A DNA stretch of 64,000 bases, from positions 389,572 to 453,571 of the forward strand of contig MEPC01000024.1 of assembly GCA_001769655.1 (NCBI GenBank). The letters are read 5' to 3'. Under the pieces are notes generated by a model. The model did no database searches, was not told the DNA's origin, and was given only the letters and a program-made list of their open reading frames with translations. Source of the stretch: Bacteroidetes bacterium RIFCSPLOWO2_12_FULL_37_12 (GTDB taxonomy: Bacteria; Bacteroidota; Bacteroidia; 2-12-FULL-37-12). Made by a program: the position numbers and the translations under genes. How positions within the stretch are numbered: position 1 is the stretch's first letter; the number at the start of each line of letters is the position of its first letter. This document shows positions 40,890 through 47,457 of this stretch, in pieces.

Positions 40890-41669
40890 TCAAAACCCCC
40901 CAAACGCCGGCTTTCTTTTTTCAATAAACGCTTTCACGCCCTCCTTGTAATCCTGCGAGCGACCGGCAATTTCCTGGTACCATGCTTCCTTCTCAAGCAT
41001 TTCATCTAAGGAAGAATTAAATGATTGATGCAATAATTTTTTTATCATACCGATAGCTTTTGTAGGTGCTTTAGCATATTTGACAGATAGTTCATTCACC
41101 GCTGAATCTAATTCATTTTCCGGAACTATTTTATTTATCATACCTATTTCAAATGCCTCTTTGGCGGAAATTTTTGTAGCGAGTGTGGCATATTCAAATG
41201 CCTTTTTGGTGCCAGCCAATCGAGGGAGAAAAAAAGAAGCGCCGGAATCGAGTACTAATCCAATGTTTATAAATACTTCACAAAGGGATGCGTTTTCAGA
41301 GGCAACAATCAAATCACAGGCAAGGGCAATGGAACATCCCGCTCCTGCGGCGATTCCATTTAACCGGCAGATAACGGGTTTTTCCAAGCCGGTTATTCCT
41401 TTTATAATTGGTATGTATTTTCTTTTTACGGCTTCTCCAAGCGAATAATTTTCGCTCGGTGAAATTTCTTTCAAATCCTGTCCGGAACAGAATGCTTTTC
41501 CTGAACCGGTTATAACAAGCACGCGAATCGTTATATCTTTGGCAACAGTTTTCAAAGCATCCTGAATTTCCAATCCGATTTTTTCATTAATGGCATTGAA
41601 AAATTCCGGGCGGTTCAGGGTTAAGGTGGCTACGCCGCCGGTTGTGGAGAATAAAATGTGTTCGTACAT
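40890..41669 (-). CDS. Enoyl-CoA hydratase/isomerase family protein (PaaG-like)
   Basis: The 259-residue crotonase-fold protein acts on acyl-CoA substrates (hydration or isomerisation). Motifs are GSGKAFCSGQDLKEI (oxyanion hole), CRLNGIAAGAGCSIALACDLIVASENA and FINIGLVLDSGASFFLPRLAG. The second motif keeps the AAGAG CoA-binding pattern, and FINIGLVLDSGASFFLPRLAG is close to the PaaG/phenylacetate branch. No other phenylacetate genes are present, so beta-oxidation isomerase is equally possible. Confidence 0.9.
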   Translation of the reverse strand: MYEHILFSTTGGVATLTLNRPEFFNAINEKIGLEIQDALKTVAKDITIRVLVITGSGKAFCSGQDLKEISPSENYSLGEAVKRKYIPIIKGITGLEKPVICRLNGIAAGAGCSIALACDLIVASENASLCEVFINIGLVLDSGASFFLPRLAGTKKAFEYATLATKISAKEAFEIGMINKIVPENELDSAVNELSVKYAKAPTKAIGMIKKLLHQSFNSSLDEMLEKEAWYQEIAGRSQDYKEGVKAFIEKRKPAFGGF

Positions 41670-41834
41670 GGTTTGTTGAGTGATTTTTTTTATCGCATAG
41701 GATGAATAACTGCGATTTGATAATTATACTGAAATCATGAATACCAGAGCAGATTATTATTATATCTTTGGGTAGTAGGCAAAAATAAATTTAACCGCAA
41801 CTGACTTCAACCGCCGGATAAACTCTTGGAATTA

Positions 41835-42110
41835 TCAATATACTTCATCATGTTTGCCTATATCTATAAAAACTGCTTTTTTGGGGTTATCTTTTGTAAA
41901 GAAAAATACAATTCTAATATCATATCCTGATCTAAAACTCCATTTACCTTCCAAATTTCCTGATAATTTATGAGTTTTTAATCTTGAATCAAAAGGGTCA
42001 TTTATAAAAATTTCTAATCTTGTCCAAAATTCTGCCTCAATGTTAACTATACCTTTTATTCTTTTTTTAAAAATCTTTTTAAATGGTTTACTAAAAGATA
42101 CTTCCATCAA
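41835..42110 (-). CDS. Type II toxin, RelE/YafQ family
   Basis: The 91-residue ribosome-dependent mRNA interferase-like protein begins MMEVSFSKPFKKIFKKRIKG and ends in the family motif KAVFIDIGKHDEVY. The basic patches and the TKHKLSGNLEGKWSFRSGYDIRIVFFF-like middle match RelE/YafQ toxins. It overlaps the upstream antitoxin gene by 4 bp (ATGA). In such systems the antitoxin is made first and blocks the toxin and the promoter. Confidence 0.88.
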   Translation of the reverse strand: MMEVSFSKPFKKIFKKRIKGIVNIEAEFWTRLEIFINDPFDSRLKTHKLSGNLEGKWSFRSGYDIRIVFFFTKDNPKKAVFIDIGKHDEVY

Positions 42111-42322
42111 AGCATTTTTTTAAGTTCACTAATTTTACTTGAAAATTTTAATTTTCCAGATTCATATTCTTCCTGTGCCATTTTATAGTTTGAAAGTATT
42201 TCACGACGACGGGTTTCGGCTATATTATGTTCTAACAAGTTTTTGAGTTCAAGCCTGTCGTCAAGAGGTAAACTATAAATTACCTCTACTATATTATTAA
42301 ATGTGCTATTACTTACTATCAT
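42107..42322 (-). CDS. Type II antitoxin partner of the RelE-family toxin
   Basis: The 71-residue acidic-to-neutral protein (MIVSNSTFNNIVEVIYSLPLDDRLELKNLLEHNIAETRRREILSN...) is of the kind that precedes RelE-type toxins. It is encoded directly upstream and overlaps the toxin start. The segment SLPLDDRLELKNLL resembles the short helical antitoxins without an obvious HTH. A promoter -7 box (42335-42342) lies just upstream. Its identity rests mainly on its position. Confidence 0.75.
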   Translation of the reverse strand: MIVSNSTFNNIVEVIYSLPLDDRLELKNLLEHNIAETRRREILSNYKMAQEEYESGKLKFSSKISELKKML

Positions 42323-42334
42323 GATTTTTTTTTA

Positions 42335-42342
42335 CAAATATA
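42335..42342 (-). promoter_or_regulatory. Promoter -7 element of the toxin-antitoxin operon
   Basis: On the minus strand this reads TATATTTG; the start codon is 13 bp on, giving an almost leaderless message. Confidence 0.45.
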
Positions 42343-42400
42343 ACAAATATTTTAATATTACTGTTGTACGATTGTCGAGCAGTAATACAAAAATATTATC

Positions 42401-42549
42401 ACTGTTGTCCGACTAAAATAAGTGATAACTTCAAATAGCCCTGAAAGGGCTAATCGAAAGTCATATATAATCGGGGGGGGTACATTTGTAAAATCACTAT
42501 TTATTAGAAAAAGAATAGTGGTTTTTATATGTTTAGTCGGGCAACAATG
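42401..42549. repeat. Inverted-repeat element with CACTGTTGTCCGACTAAA ends
   Basis: The left end (42400-42418, CACTGTTGTCCGACTAAAA) matches the complement of the right end (42531-42549, CATTGTTGCCCGACTAAAC) at most of 19 positions. Inside are the perfect hairpin AGCCCTGAAAGGGCT (about 42437-42451), a run of eight G (42473-42480) and the terminator-like hairpin at 42495-42520. A third partial end is at about 42361-42380. This is the main content of the 310-bp gap between the toxin-antitoxin and restriction-modification units. Confidence 0.6.
42487..42525 (-). terminator. Probable terminator of the restriction-modification operon
   Basis: A perfect 7-bp stem (CACTATT 42495-42501 / AATAGTG 42514-42520) with flanking A/T tracts lies about 110 bp after the stop of the methyltransferase gene. 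Confidence 0.45.
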
Positions 42550-42631
42550 AAAAATTATATACTAATCAGTTGGGTTAATTTATTATTTGCATTTTAAATA
42601 CTAAAATTAATTTTTTTTCAACTCCCATTAG

Positions 42632-43465
42632 TTAAACGTTAAACAAATACGTTGTCTGCGAAACCGGCGTGCCGTTTTGTTGTTGAAAATATTTTAGTTT
42701 GTGTTCGTGTTTGATTTTTCCGTTATTCTCCAAACGGTCTAAAATCATTTGGTAATAGTCAGCGTGTAACTCACAACTGATAAAGTTACGTTTTAAATTT
42801 TTGCATAAAACCAATTCGCTACCGCTACCGCCAAATAAAATAAAAACATCGTCGTTTTCTTGTGTGCAAGATTTGATAAGCATTTCAACTAATGGTAATG
42901 GAATTTGGCAAGAATGAAATGTTTTGTCTTTACTTACATTTTTTACAAGGTCGTAGTAAAACCAACTATAAGGCATACGACCTAAATGACCGTAAGCAAT
43001 TCGTTCCCGTATTCTTTTGTCTGTTGGATTTTGATAAGGCACTGCCACATTGTCTTTATAGAAATTATTGTCTTTGCTTTTGGTTGCGTGCAAAATTGAA
43101 CGATGTGCTGTTGTAAATCGTCTTGGGCTGTGTCCAACATTGGTATTATAAATCCAAACATAGTCCTGAACATCAAAAGCATTATCGTCTAAATATTTTA
43201 CTCTCAAATGAGCATTTTGCTTTGGGTAGTTCATCATAAATAAACTACCTGTTGGTTTTAAAACCCTCATACTTTCTTTGGTCAATTCAATATACCAATC
43301 AATATAATCTTTCCATTTAGTTGTGTAGTTTTTCCCGGCGTAATTGATACCTACATTGTAATCAGGGTCGCCGTAAACCATATCCAATGAATTGTCTGGA
43401 AGTCGTTTTAAAACTTTCATCACATCTTCGTCGAACACTCTGTTTCTAAATTCTTTTGCTTTCAT
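42632..43465 (-). CDS. DNA methyltransferase (beta-class N6-adenine/N4-cytosine type)
   Basis: The 277-residue protein has motif IV first (MVYGDPDYNVGINYAGKN, D33-Y36) and motif I near the C-terminus (FILFGGSGSELVL, 211-216), preceded by a motif X-like FHSCQIPLPLVEMLI. That order defines the beta class. Motif IV reads DPDY rather than the usual DPPY. The start overlaps the upstream restriction gene as ATGA. It modifies the host target so that the partner nuclease does not cut it. The recognition sequence cannot be inferred. Confidence 0.88.
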   Translation of the reverse strand: MKAKEFRNRVFDEDVMKVLKRLPDNSLDMVYGDPDYNVGINYAGKNYTTKWKDYIDWYIELTKESMRVLKPTGSLFMMNYPKQNAHLRVKYLDDNAFDVQDYVWIYNTNVGHSPRRFTTAHRSILHATKSKDNNFYKDNVAVPYQNPTDKRIRERIAYGHLGRMPYSWFYYDLVKNVSKDKTFHSCQIPLPLVEMLIKSCTQENDDVFILFGGSGSELVLCKNLKRNFISCELHADYYQMILDRLENNGKIKHEHKLKYFQQQNGTPVSQTTYLFNV

Positions 43466-44292
43466 TGTGCGTTCTGATTTATTAAATTATATGCGGATGA
43501 TTTTATAAACTTGATAGTTGTTATATCAAGCGGATTTTCAAAAGTATAAGCCCAAAGTTTAATTGTATCGTATGTTTTTGATTTTTCACGAACTACATAA
43601 ACACAAAATATTTCTTTGATCTTACCCTGTAATTCAACTGTCTTGTTTGCATTGTAATAGTATAAAAAAGGATGGTAAAGTTGTATCGTATTAAAGGATA
43701 TAGGTTTTCCATTCTTTCCTTCAAAAATCCCTATTATTCCTTGAAATTCAATTGTCAAATCAATCTCTATCTGTACTTTATTACAAGTTATTTTTTCATT
43801 ACCAAAGTTATATTCCAGGGATGATTTAGTACGATGAGGAAAATATGTTTTAGGGCGTTTTGTAATATCAATATCGTCAAATTCGGTATCTTGTCCAAAC
43901 AAAAAATGGTGTAAAATTCTTTGGTTATTAGCAACAGACAGCATATTGCTTTCACTGGTATTATACTGGTTTAATATACTCTTTTTATATTTCCATTCTA
44001 TTTCTTTTTCTATGGGTTCGAATTGATGATAAACTTTTTTAATTCCCTTAACAAATTGATGAAACCCTTTTCCCAAATGAATAACAGCAAAATCTTCATT
44101 TAATAATGTTTGAGATAATAGCTTTTGATTATCAAACTTGGTAGCGGTAAATGGATTCCCAAAGCCACATTTTACTGAAACCTCTTTAACCGTTTTATTA
44201 TGAAAAATAAAATTATTTTTGTTCTTGCAAATACTTAATAATTTGTCAATTACTTGATGCTGCTTGCTTTTTTTTGATTGTTTCTTTTCCAT
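43462..44292 (-). CDS. Probable type II restriction endonuclease of the PD-(D/E)XK fold
   Basis: I do not recognise the family by name, but the 276-residue protein sits directly before the methyltransferase with a 4-bp overlap and carries a nuclease-like core. Residues 174-193 read QIEIDLTIEFQGIIGIFEGKN: D178, then E191 and K193 twelve residues on, a D-x12-ExK pattern of PD-(D/E)XK nucleases. The N-terminal part is rich in Lys and shows VKCGFGNPFTATKFDNQKL. The identification as the restriction partner is an inference from position plus these residues. Confidence 0.75.
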   Translation of the reverse strand: MEKKQSKKSKQHQVIDKLLSICKNKNNFIFHNKTVKEVSVKCGFGNPFTATKFDNQKLLSQTLLNEDFAVIHLGKGFHQFVKGIKKVYHQFEPIEKEIEWKYKKSILNQYNTSESNMLSVANNQRILHHFLFGQDTEFDDIDITKRPKTYFPHRTKSSLEYNFGNEKITCNKVQIEIDLTIEFQGIIGIFEGKNGKPISFNTIQLYHPFLYYYNANKTVELQGKIKEIFCVYVVREKSKTYDTIKLWAYTFENPLDITTIKFIKSSAYNLINQNAQ

Positions 44293-44310
44293 TGTATTTA
44301 TTTATGTAGT

Positions 44311-44472
44311 TCAAAAATCTTTAAAAATGTTTTTCAAATCTTCAAAAGAATATCTTTCGATAATTTTTCTTTTTAGGAATATTAATAGTTCAATGCCATC
44401 CCAATCCCATTCATCAAATGGCTCCGTGGTAAAGTGTAAAAATCTTGTAATTAAATCAAGTTGCTTTTGCAT
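44311..44472 (-). CDS. Small protein of unknown function in the restriction-modification operon (53 aa)
   Basis: The frame starts at the ATG at 44472-44470, which overlaps the stop of the small gene before it by one base (TAATG), and ends at 44311. The product (MQKQLDLITRFLHFTTEPFD..., then EWDWDGIELLIFLKRKIIERYSFEDLK) is acidic-aromatic with a helical C-terminus. It lies 18 bp before the restriction gene. The tight packing suggests a real operon member, perhaps a regulator or a helper, but it is too short to classify. Confidence 0.55.
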   Translation of the reverse strand: MQKQLDLITRFLHFTTEPFDEWDWDGIELLIFLKRKIIERYSFEDLKNIFKDF

Positions 44473-44597
44473 TATCTATTTATAGTTAAATTACCTTCGG
44501 GTTTAATGCTTTCCTGCTCTCCGTTTTTAGAAATGTATTTAACCAAATCCTCCAATGCTGAAATTGTTCTAATTTTTTTTATATTATATTTTTTCAT
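44472..44597 (-). CDS. Small protein of unknown function, first gene of the restriction-modification operon (41 aa)
   Basis: The ATG at 44597 begins MKKYNIKKIRTISALEDLVK and continues YISKNGEQESIKPEGNLTINR; the stop overlaps the next start (TAATG). No signal peptide or HTH is seen. It is basic, and the arrangement (two overlapping tiny genes before R and M) is reminiscent of small control genes in restriction operons, but it has no C-protein motif. It is bounded upstream by the tandem repeat at 44641. Confidence 0.5.
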   Translation of the reverse strand: MKKYNIKKIRTISALEDLVKYISKNGEQESIKPEGNLTINR

Positions 44598-44640
44598 TTT
44601 ATTTATTTCATTTGAATTTTCACCGTTTGTAAAATTTCTT

Positions 44641-44760
44641 TTCTACCGATATTCCGTCCCTAACGGGACTTGGATTTAATGCGATTTCCATTCTACCGAT
44701 ATTCCGTCCCTAACGGGACTTGGATTTGATGCGATTTCCATTCTACCGATATTCCGTCCC
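44641..44760. repeat. 50-bp tandem repeat with a GTCCCTAACGGGAC hairpin
   Basis: Two full units and a partial third (starting 44641, 44691 and 44741) read TTCTACCGATATTCCGTCCC, then TAACGGGACTTGGATT and TGATGCGATTTCC; one base differs between units. Each full unit holds the palindrome GTCCC-TAAC-GGGAC. The spacing is uniform and the whole unit repeats, so this is not a CRISPR array. It borders the restriction island. Confidence 0.85.
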
Positions 44761-44764
44761 AAAT

Positions 44765-44806
44765 TAAACAATGTTCAATGTCAAACGAACAACTAACAAT
44801 AAACAA
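44765..44806. repeat. Heptanucleotide repeat (CAATGTT/CAACTAA type)
   Basis: Six degenerate period-7 units (CAATGTT, CAATGTC, AAACGAA, CAACTAA, CAATAAA, CAAGTAA) lie between the tandem repeat and lptB. Confidence 0.7.
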
Positions 44807-44815
44807 GTAATCCCT

Positions 44816-45544
44816 TCACCTCGGTCTCAACTCAAAATTTTTCCCCAGATAAACCCTTCTTACCATTTCATCGCCGGCTAAAAATGCTGCCGTTCCGAAT
44901 TTTAATATTTTTCCTTCGTAAAGCAAATACGCACGGTCGGTAATGGATAATGTCTCATGCACATTATGGTCGGTAATAAGAATTCCTATGTTTTTTTTCC
45001 GCAGACGTATTATCAGTTCCTGAATTTCTTCAACGGCTATGGGGTCCACTCCCGCAAAGGGTTCATCCAACAAAATAAATTTCGGATCCGAGGCAAGAGA
45101 ACGGGCAATTTCTGTTCTTCTGCGTTCACCGCCTGAAAGTACAATACCTAAATTTTTCCTTACCAGATGTAATGTAAATTCTGTAAGCAGTTCTTCGAGC
45201 CGTTCTTTGCGTTTCTTTTTGTCGGGCTGTACCATTTCCAGCACCGCCATAATATTATCTTCTACACTTAAATGCCGGAAAACCGATGCCTCCTGCGGCA
45301 GATAGCCAACCCCTCTACGGGCTCGTTTGTACATGGGCTTGCTCGTGATTTCTTCATTCTCCAGAAAAATTTTTCCTTCATCGGGCGCAATCAGCCCAAC
45401 TATCATGTAAAAAGTAGTGGTTTTGCCGGCTCCGTTAGGACCCAATAATCCCACAATTTCTCCTTGGCTTACGTCAATCGAAACATCGTTGACTACCGGC
45501 CGGGATTTATAGATTTTGATGAGGTTTTCTGCGCGGAGATTCAT
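44816..45544 (-). CDS. lptB: LPS export ABC transporter ATP-binding protein
   Basis: The 242-residue ABC ATPase drives LptBFG, which pulls LPS from the inner membrane to the Lpt bridge. Seen are Walker [10 protein letters not shown] (about 35-43), the signature [16 protein letters not shown], Walker [13 protein letters not shown] and the H-loop DHNV. The tail [16 protein letters not shown] is typical of LptB. The Lpt membrane partners are elsewhere. T9SS cargo are attached to LPS in related bacteria, so the gene supports the secretion role of the region. A family 2 MITE lies directly upstream of the start. Confidence 0.92.
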
Positions 45545-45551
45545 TTATGTT

Positions 45552-45720
45552 TTATACTGTTAACGTAACAAATTTCATCAAATGTCTATATTGACATATT
45601 GTTCTATTGTTTCATTGTTTCATTGTTAATTGACCCCATGATTTCAGCACAACAATGAAACAATGTAGCAATGGAACAAAGAACAGAGTTAAACGAAAAT
45701 TTATACCGATTGCAGTATAA
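45552..45720 (+). mobile_element. MITE-like element, family 2, copy A (169 bp)
   Basis: Terminal inverted repeats TTATACTG... at the left and, inverted, TTATACTGCAATCGG at the right. The interior is rich in ATTGTTTCATTG-type palindromic sequence. A copy in the opposite orientation lies at 62561-62713. It contains no ORF and sits between recJ and lptB, directly upstream of lptB. Confidence 0.85.
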
Positions 45721-45756
45721 CTGATATATTGACACAGAGCACCGTGTCTTACATTT

Positions 45757-47457
45757 CTACATTGTATAATTTACATCCTTCACGTTCAACTGCACCGTCC
45801 TCCTTCCGTTCCATTCATTCTCTTCCACACAATAACAGGCATTAAACGGTATTCCGCGTGAAATATACGGATAATGCTCTGCCATGCCAAAAGCAATACC
45901 ATCAAAAGAGATTGAGTTTTCCTGACGCAAAACCATTTTAAGATGGTTGGAACCCACTTTTCTTGCAAATCCTGAGTCATAGACGGTTTCGCTCATAAAA
46001 ACCGGCGCCATGTTTCCGGGTCCGTAGGGCTCAAAGTCACTCAGCTTTCTGACAAAGTCAGGAAGAATCTGGCTCAGATTAATTTTCAAGTCAATCTCTA
46101 TGGATGACACCAATTGTTCTTTCGTAATCTTTTTAGTAACCTCCTCATCAAACTTTTGAATGAATTCAGGAATTTTCTCTGTAGAAATGGTTAATCCGGC
46201 GGCATACTTATGTCCTCCGTATTGAATCAACAGATCTTTACAGGAACTGAGTGCTTGGTAAATATCAAAACCAGCCACCGAGCGGGCTGAACCAACCGCC
46301 ACTCCGTTAGATTTAGTTAAAACAATGGTAGGACGGTAATGATGTTCAATCAGTCGTGAGGCAACAATGCCAATCACACCTTTCTGCCACTCAGGATGAT
46401 AAATTACCGTTGTGCACATTTCGTTGTAACCTTCAGTTTGTTTTAATAATTCAAGTGCTTCGAAGGTTGTATCAGCATCAAATTCCTTGCGTGTATCGTT
46501 GTGTGTATTAATATCTATAGCCAGTTTGCGGGCTGTTTCCATTTCATCTGCCATCAGTAAATCTACCGCAAGCCGCGCAGAACTGATTCTGCCAGCCGCA
46601 TTTATTTTAGGTCCTACTCCAAAAACAAGGTCGCTGATTGAAAACGCTGATTTTTTTCCTAACATATCGAGCAATGCTCTAATTCCGGGACGAGGTGTGG
46701 AATTAATAATTTTTAAACCATGAGCTGAAAGTATCCGGTTTTCGCCTGTCACCGGTACAATATCCGATGCTATGCTTAGTGTCACTAAATCGAGCCAGGG
46801 TTTTATAGTTTGAATGTCAAATCCTTTTGAAATAGCCAATGCCTGAATTAATTTAAAACCTATCCCACAACCTGAAAGCTCTTTAAAAGGATAATGACAC
46901 TCAGGTTGTTTTGGGTCCAGAATGGCTAATGCCGGGGGAAGAATATTATCAGGAAGATGATGATCGCAAACAATAAAATCAATGTTGGCATCACAAGCAG
47001 ATTGAATGGCTGAGTGTGCATTGATACCGCAATCCAACGAAATTATAAGTGTCACTCCCTTTTCTTTGGCATATACAATCCCAGGCAAAGAAACTCCATA
47101 GCCCTCTTTGTAGCGGTCGGGAGTATAAAATTCAACTGTTGCCTGTTGACTTTTAAGATAGGAAACCATCAAAGCAATGGAAGTTGTGCCATCTACATCA
47201 TAATCGCCATACACAAGTATTTTTTCCTTTTTATTTAATGCAGTTGAAATTCTGGCTACTGCTTTATCCATGCCTTTCATCAGGAATGGGTCGTGAAGAT
47301 GCGAGAGGTCCGGATGAAAAAACAATTGGGCTTCTTCGGGGGTATTTATGCCTCTTTGAATCAACAGTTTTGTCAGATAGACATTCAGCTTTAGCTGCTG
47401 AGCCAGATTCTGAACAAGTTCAGGATTTGGCAATGGTTTAATTTTCCACGTTTTCAT
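45757..47457 (-). CDS. recJ: Single-stranded-DNA-specific exonuclease RecJ
   Basis: RecJ degrades single-stranded DNA 5'->3' in recombination and repair. The 566-residue protein has the DHH domain: VYGDYDVDGTTSIALMV, ISLDCGINAHSA, CDHHLPD, ILDPKQPECHYPFKELSGCGIGFKL. The DHHA1 domain follows (GVIGIVASRLIEHHYRPTIVLT, VAGFDIYQALSSCKDLLIQYGGHKYAAGLTI), and an OB-like C-terminal region ends it. Length is usual. A -7 box lies upstream on the minus strand. Confidence 0.95.
   Translation of the reverse strand: MKTWKIKPLPNPELVQNLAQQLKLNVYLTKLLIQRGINTPEEAQLFFHPDLSHLHDPFLMKGMDKAVARISTALNKKEKILVYGDYDVDGTTSIALMVSYLKSQQATVEFYTPDRYKEGYGVSLPGIVYAKEKGVTLIISLDCGINAHSAIQSACDANIDFIVCDHHLPDNILPPALAILDPKQPECHYPFKELSGCGIGFKLIQALAISKGFDIQTIKPWLDLVTLSIASDIVPVTGENRILSAHGLKIINSTPRPGIRALLDMLGKKSAFSISDLVFGVGPKINAAGRISSARLAVDLLMADEMETARKLAIDINTHNDTRKEFDADTTFEALELLKQTEGYNEMCTTVIYHPEWQKGVIGIVASRLIEHHYRPTIVLTKSNGVAVGSARSVAGFDIYQALSSCKDLLIQYGGHKYAAGLTISTEKIPEFIQKFDEEVTKKITKEQLVSSIEIDLKINLSQILPDFVRKLSDFEPYGPGNMAPVFMSETVYDSGFARKVGSNHLKMVLRQENSISFDGIAFGMAEHYPYISRGIPFNACYCVEENEWNGRRTVQLNVKDVNYTM

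Follow-up and report, generated by a model that had tools for sequence, protein, structure and literature searches.

Organization of the locus

Four frames follow one another on the minus strand of the window (the whole 64,000-nucleotide stretch analyzed here), encoding a 41-aa peptide, a 53-aa protein termed p53, a putative endonuclease (R), and a DNA methyltransferase (M) (Table 1). Judged from its sequence, the locus is a type II restriction–modification (R-M) operon that carries p53 as an optional accessory gene. An initial annotation had described the four frames with TAATG and ATGA overlaps, and both are confirmed: the former is shared by the 41-aa frame and the p53 gene, the latter by R and M. 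The p53 gene and R do not overlap and are separated by a gap of 18 nt. The assignment as a type II R-M operon was also right, with a homolog of M adjoining R in all 17 loci that were anchored on relatives of R; R and M are, by this gene neighborhood, a conserved pair. The pair itself is ordinary-looking and a fresh representative of a familiar type II kind. The new part is the accessory p53 family of putative function, which is taken as undescribed because it has no entry in the libraries and was found in none of the papers searched.

Table 1 Features of the window and gene arrangements at other loci that carry p53
Feature	Position	Strand	Description
41-aa frame	44472..44597	-	stop overlaps start of the 53-aa gene (TAATG)
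p53 gene	44311..44472	-	53 aa; acidic accessory protein (p53 family)
R	43462..44292	-	276 aa; DUF6996 winged-helix-like and DUF6997 nuclease-like parts; D178/E191/K193
M	42632..43465	-	277 aa; beta-class DNA methyltransferase; DPDY motif IV
50-bp direct repeats	44634..44783		three copies, third partial; directly upstream of the operon
Short element	42396-42553		close downstream of M; inverted ends of 22 nt (86% complementary); run of C
Toxin–antitoxin-like pair	41835-42322		small gene pair adjoining the R-M operon
L027			p53 upstream of R
L024			p53 between R and M
L021			p53 after M
L031			p53 fused in-frame to R, one continuous 325-codon frame
L073			p53-R-M
L070			270-aa unknown, DPDY methyltransferase of 401 aa, p53
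L071			relative of the L070 270-aa unknown (66% identical), REase_II-like protein (PDLC03534, 7.5e-11), p53
L074			truncated D12 methyltransferase, PLD+DpnI_C protein, p53
L098			DPPY methyltransferase, PDLC03534 REase (1.9e-8), p53, then DUF6997 fragment

The 50-bp repeats carry a GTCCC-TAAC-GGGAC hairpin, and their 24-base core has two exact copies genome-wide, both of which lie within this repeat stretch. The short element downstream of M looks like a MITE-type repeat, since 14 matches to the stretch 42390-42560 are listed within its own genome. In the adjoining gene pair, the putative toxin looks like the YafQ/RelE type (TIGR00053, 1.5e-6) and the putative antitoxin is VapB15-like (1.9e-4), both matches being below cut-off. 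An Rfam scan of 41000-46000 gave nothing at the gathering score.

The methyltransferase and the endonuclease

M matches PF01555 (N6_N4_Mtase) at 6.3e-33 and the PADLOC MTase_II model at 2.5e-116. Residues 32-37 read GDPDYN and residues 211-216 read FGGSGS, which we take to be motif IV and motif I, respectively. As motif IV precedes motif I, M has the beta-class order that the initial annotation had given it. The catalytic and FxGxG columns are invariant in an alignment of 24 M sequences. The spelling DPDY (residues 33-36) in place of DPPY had been read correctly but is no oddity; it is present in 24/24 aligned proteins and is thus a trait of the family, which rules out a damaged motif. A set of M proteins from viral contigs, picked partly by the DPDY peptide, was left out of this count. 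Nothing relevant on DPDY methyltransferases was present in the literature searched.

R is a basic protein (computed pI 9.31) that matches PF22518 (DUF6997, 8.5e-30), PF22515 (DUF6996, 3.1e-8), and a PADLOC type II REase model (5.7e-8). Its earlier description as PD-(D/E)XK-like is borne out by a D...ExK pattern that 21 aligned R proteins share without exception at E191 and K193 and almost without exception at D178 (G in L026). A structure model was built via the fused relative L031, and its R part is mostly good. Residues 60-135 resemble winged helices in this model (best Z 6.8). The best matches of the C-terminal part, at Z 4-6, include nucleases of the cap-snatching and RecB types, listed alongside unrelated proteins, and a Foldseek search gave nothing at E 0.001; a nuclease-type fold of the modeled C-terminal part is suggestive only. 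Only R rows went into the fused model; p53 is poorly modeled there (pLDDT about 54-63), and nothing about contacts between p53 and R can be read from it. Alignments that combined p53 rows with R rows were faulty and were discarded.

A scan with one genome per species yielded 17 relatives of R that are 59-71% identical to it. DUF6997 occurs in 12/395 genomes of the phylum. Among 50,697 phage records, a single one contains a relative of R, that of Thermus phage phiLo (L036), and none was found among plasmid records at the limit used. The phiLo R-M pair (R about 39% and M 61% identical) adjoins a gene whose annotation is type III restriction subunit R, and the R of the pair looks divergent past about residue 212. 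In two other loci, R and M are separated by a gene for 145 aa (L030 4833-5270 and L035 4764-5201) with an EVKND stretch that appears nuclease-like by eye; the L030 copy has no Pfam or PADLOC match.

The p53 family

The p53 family comprises 12 members, namely the protein of the window, four from R-anchored loci, and seven from other genomes. Over all pairs of the 12 members, changes at codon positions 1/2/3 amount to 0.40/0.27/0.55. An AlphaFold2 model from 11 sequences reaches a pLDDT of 91.4 and takes on a fold of one helix, three strands, and a second helix. The 11 of the 12 members for which a pI was computed are all acidic, with values of 4.05-5.25. The size of the family, the predominance of changes at third codon positions, and the confident fold model establish p53 as a conserved, real protein. 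That both small frames are spurious is accordingly a highly improbable reading. A+T-rich DNA often contains short frames, and the G+C content of the 41-aa frame is flat over the codon positions (0.26/0.26/0.24), so that the reading may apply to the 41-aa frame if this is taken as a gene with a function, but for p53 it is refuted by the 12 members, their protein-like pattern of change, and the fold.

No relation of p53 to a described protein emerged from the searches. Pfam and PHROGs gave only scattered single-member matches at E > 0.009, and the p53 of the window has no match in PADLOC and one NCBIfam match at E 0.18. The best sequence-profile match in the PDB has E 0.57. The structure matches are unconvincing as well (Foldseek against the PDB, best E 1.1; VIA-align, best Z 4.0; viral structures, best E 0.27). 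Membership in a known family was dropped as an explanation because the family scans gave no convincing match. No p53 was found on viral contigs or, when the L061 copy was used for the search, in phages or plasmids; the plasmid matches of the window's p53 at E 0.7-0.8 are due to chance, most of them lying within dehydrogenase genes. A description of the family was not found in the literature searched, most subscription papers lying outside the reach of that search. The earlier remark that the small proteins match no known controllers was right.

Genomic context of p53

The p53 of the window matched stretches at 4/17 R-anchored loci, in four different arrangements (L027, L024, L021, and L031, Table 1), of which the fusion in L031 is seen in one metagenome-assembled contig. 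The count of four is a lower bound because some flanks are incomplete (L021 starts at R, and L025 comprises 3.4 kb). The initial annotation had named homologous operons lacking small ORFs as grounds for refuting its reading, and for p53 this is the situation in 13/17 R-anchored loci. It follows that p53 is optional and no core part of the system, and that the R-M pair works without it.

Profile searches recovered p53 in 3/395 genomes of the phylum (four listed, one marginal match dropped), 6/123 genomes of one order, 5/391 genomes of one class (seven listed, two marginal matches dropped), and 2/385 genomes of the window's own class. These sets overlap and together hold eight genomes including that of the window; the marginal matches L063 (G389), L082 (G616), and L083 (G605) were excluded before counting. 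Five of the seven other genomes have a readable p53 neighborhood, whereas p53 lies near a contig end in L072 and L075, which were unreadable. In all five readable loci, p53 adjoins R-M genes, and its partners there belong to three REase families (DUF6997, PDLC03534, and PLD+DpnI_C). On the evidence of these neighborhoods, the p53 family shows a recurrent link to R-M genes of several unrelated kinds, in any gene order.

L070 and L071 represent the same slot in different genomes of one genus. At L071 5870-5990, the apparent last codons of the L070 methyltransferase (L070 6000-6035) are kept just before p53, and the remainder of the L070-type methyltransferase gene is gone.

It is improbable that p53 is a hitch-hiking gene of defense islands with no tie to restriction. 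Its optional nature and the differing R-M content of the slot shared by L070 and L071 would fit such a gene, but the constant proximity to R-M genes in the readable loci and the fusion to and overlap with REase genes argue against it.

The 41-aa frame

No significant match to the 41-aa frame is present at the R-anchored loci. A search of 99 relatives gave a single non-self match, in genome G801 (residues 13-34), with an E value of 0.002 that holds per single genome and corresponds to about 0.2 expected over the 99. G801 also contains p53, located 1.6 kb downstream of the match on the same strand. Residues 16-33 of the frame align with residues 12-29 of the 325-aa DPPY methyltransferase of L098, the p53 locus in G801, with 12/18 residues identical; the alignment score of 69 is reached by 0/3000 shuffles, the largest of which scores 51. 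There is no comparable N-terminal extension before other relatives of the L098 methyltransferase, and the genome of the window contains no close copy of this enzyme (best 32% identity).

As the match is to the N terminus of a methyltransferase that is itself clustered with an REase and p53, the 41-aa frame is probably a stub left from the N-terminal end of a deleted methyltransferase, a reading drawn from one relative and 18 residues. The match could also reflect a shared N-terminal leader. If the frame is a stub, an older R-M unit would have neighbored the present one, and its DPPY methyltransferase body and endonuclease would have been deleted down to the start of p53. Translation of the 41-aa frame may still be coupled to p53 via TAATG; the peptide itself is probably without function. 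The initial annotation had suggested that both small proteins may be regulators or helpers. This suggestion stands in part for p53, whose family recurs beside several R-M kinds, and lacks support for the 41-aa frame, which would have been another small regulator. The locus illustrates that a small ORF ahead of R-M genes is possibly a relic of an earlier R-M unit.

Putative function of p53

Since p53 adjoins R-M genes with three REase families, it is best understood as an R-M accessory that would act at the protein level, and its acidic charge together with its range of partners suggests a general modulator. Modulation of the endonuclease is the most likely role, as far as gene neighborhoods and protein properties can indicate it. 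Rather than being a transcription factor specific to the operon, the p53 protein itself would most likely bind or buffer the endonuclease. As a modulator of assembly or activity, p53 may restrain cleavage until methylation of the DNA is in place; it could also serve as an acidic decoy that delays restriction while a new host becomes methylated. Action on unrelated endonuclease folds would be unusual for one protein, which speaks against a modulator, as do the absence of p53 from 13/17 R-anchored loci and the lack of a fold match in support of any function in the Foldseek, VIA-align, and viral-structure searches. The combined reading of an R-M operon with p53 as a protein-level modulator of the endonuclease and the 41-aa frame as a methyltransferase stub is given a probability of about 0.45. 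It is doubtful whether p53 can further be called the first family of endonuclease modulators that is encoded in type II R-M systems and spans unrelated folds (PD-(D/E)XK and PLD).

Two other roles have to be weighed against a modulator. As a regulator of transcription or translation, p53 would be a functional stand-in for C proteins, which is unlikely. It heads the operon in the window, L027, and L073, and C proteins are sometimes fused to REases according to a 2025 review (PMC12707154), comparable to p53 in L031. However, the p53 model is devoid of a helix-turn-helix (HTH), the protein is acidic and has no family match, and its gene is often the last of the operon (L021, L070, L071, L074, and L098). 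Moreover, none of the other loci compared has the 50-bp repeats that lie ahead of this operon.

Just as unlikely is a positive helper, that is, a small subunit or folding partner that the endonucleases need or profit from. The in-frame fusion in L031 is consistent with such a partner, as are L024 and L074, where the p53 gene overlaps or nearly touches an REase gene. Against it stand the 13/17 close relatives of R that occur without p53, the unrelated folds of the partners, and the L070 locus, where p53 follows a methyltransferase and no REase is recognized.

Comparison with known systems

Adjacent R and M genes, motif IV before motif I, and a nuclease-like R are features that the locus shares with type II R-M systems whose methyltransferase is of the beta class (N6_N4_Mtase). 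The locus differs from these systems in DPDY for DPPY, in the additional p53, and in an R that consists of DUF-family domains. Another tiny gene beside R-M genes is pvuIIW, which encodes the PvuII W peptide of 28 residues with a proposed role in endonuclease assembly. It has no known sequence relation to p53, and nothing relevant on it was found in the literature searched.

A controller gene is expected to encode an HTH protein of about 80 residues and to precede R. The C-protein type II systems (PvuII, BamHI, and Csp231I) resemble the locus in a small gene beside R that is sometimes fused to it (PMC12707154). p53, in contrast, has 53 residues, matches no family, is modeled as H-E-E-E-H without HTH, and is not confined to a position before R. 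Neither the HTH nor the place before R holds across the family, which makes p53 unlike a controller gene; fold and family scans rule out a C protein.

The small phage and plasmid anti-restriction proteins Ocr, ArdA, and Arn are acidic. Comparable to the role proposed for p53, they act on restriction enzymes (PMC12707154), but they come from invaders and target type I systems or McrBC, whereas p53 is located inside type II operons. RpnS is a small, intragenically encoded protein that blocks the PD-(D/E)XK defense nuclease Rpn (PMC10327210). It corresponds to the C-terminal portion of the very nuclease that it blocks, whereas p53 is a separate gene, mostly located elsewhere, with several nuclease partners; the parallel is one of analogy only. 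According to the 2025 review, direct inhibitors had not been found for type II systems that are nucleotide-independent, possibly because recognition is too varied for a general type II inhibitor (PMC12707154).

The sparing of new hosts by type II R-M systems is explained mainly via C proteins, methyltransferases, and RNA. If the proposed role is true, p53 would add a further layer of control at the protein level that is common to unrelated R-M kinds and could account for R-M systems that have no C gene.
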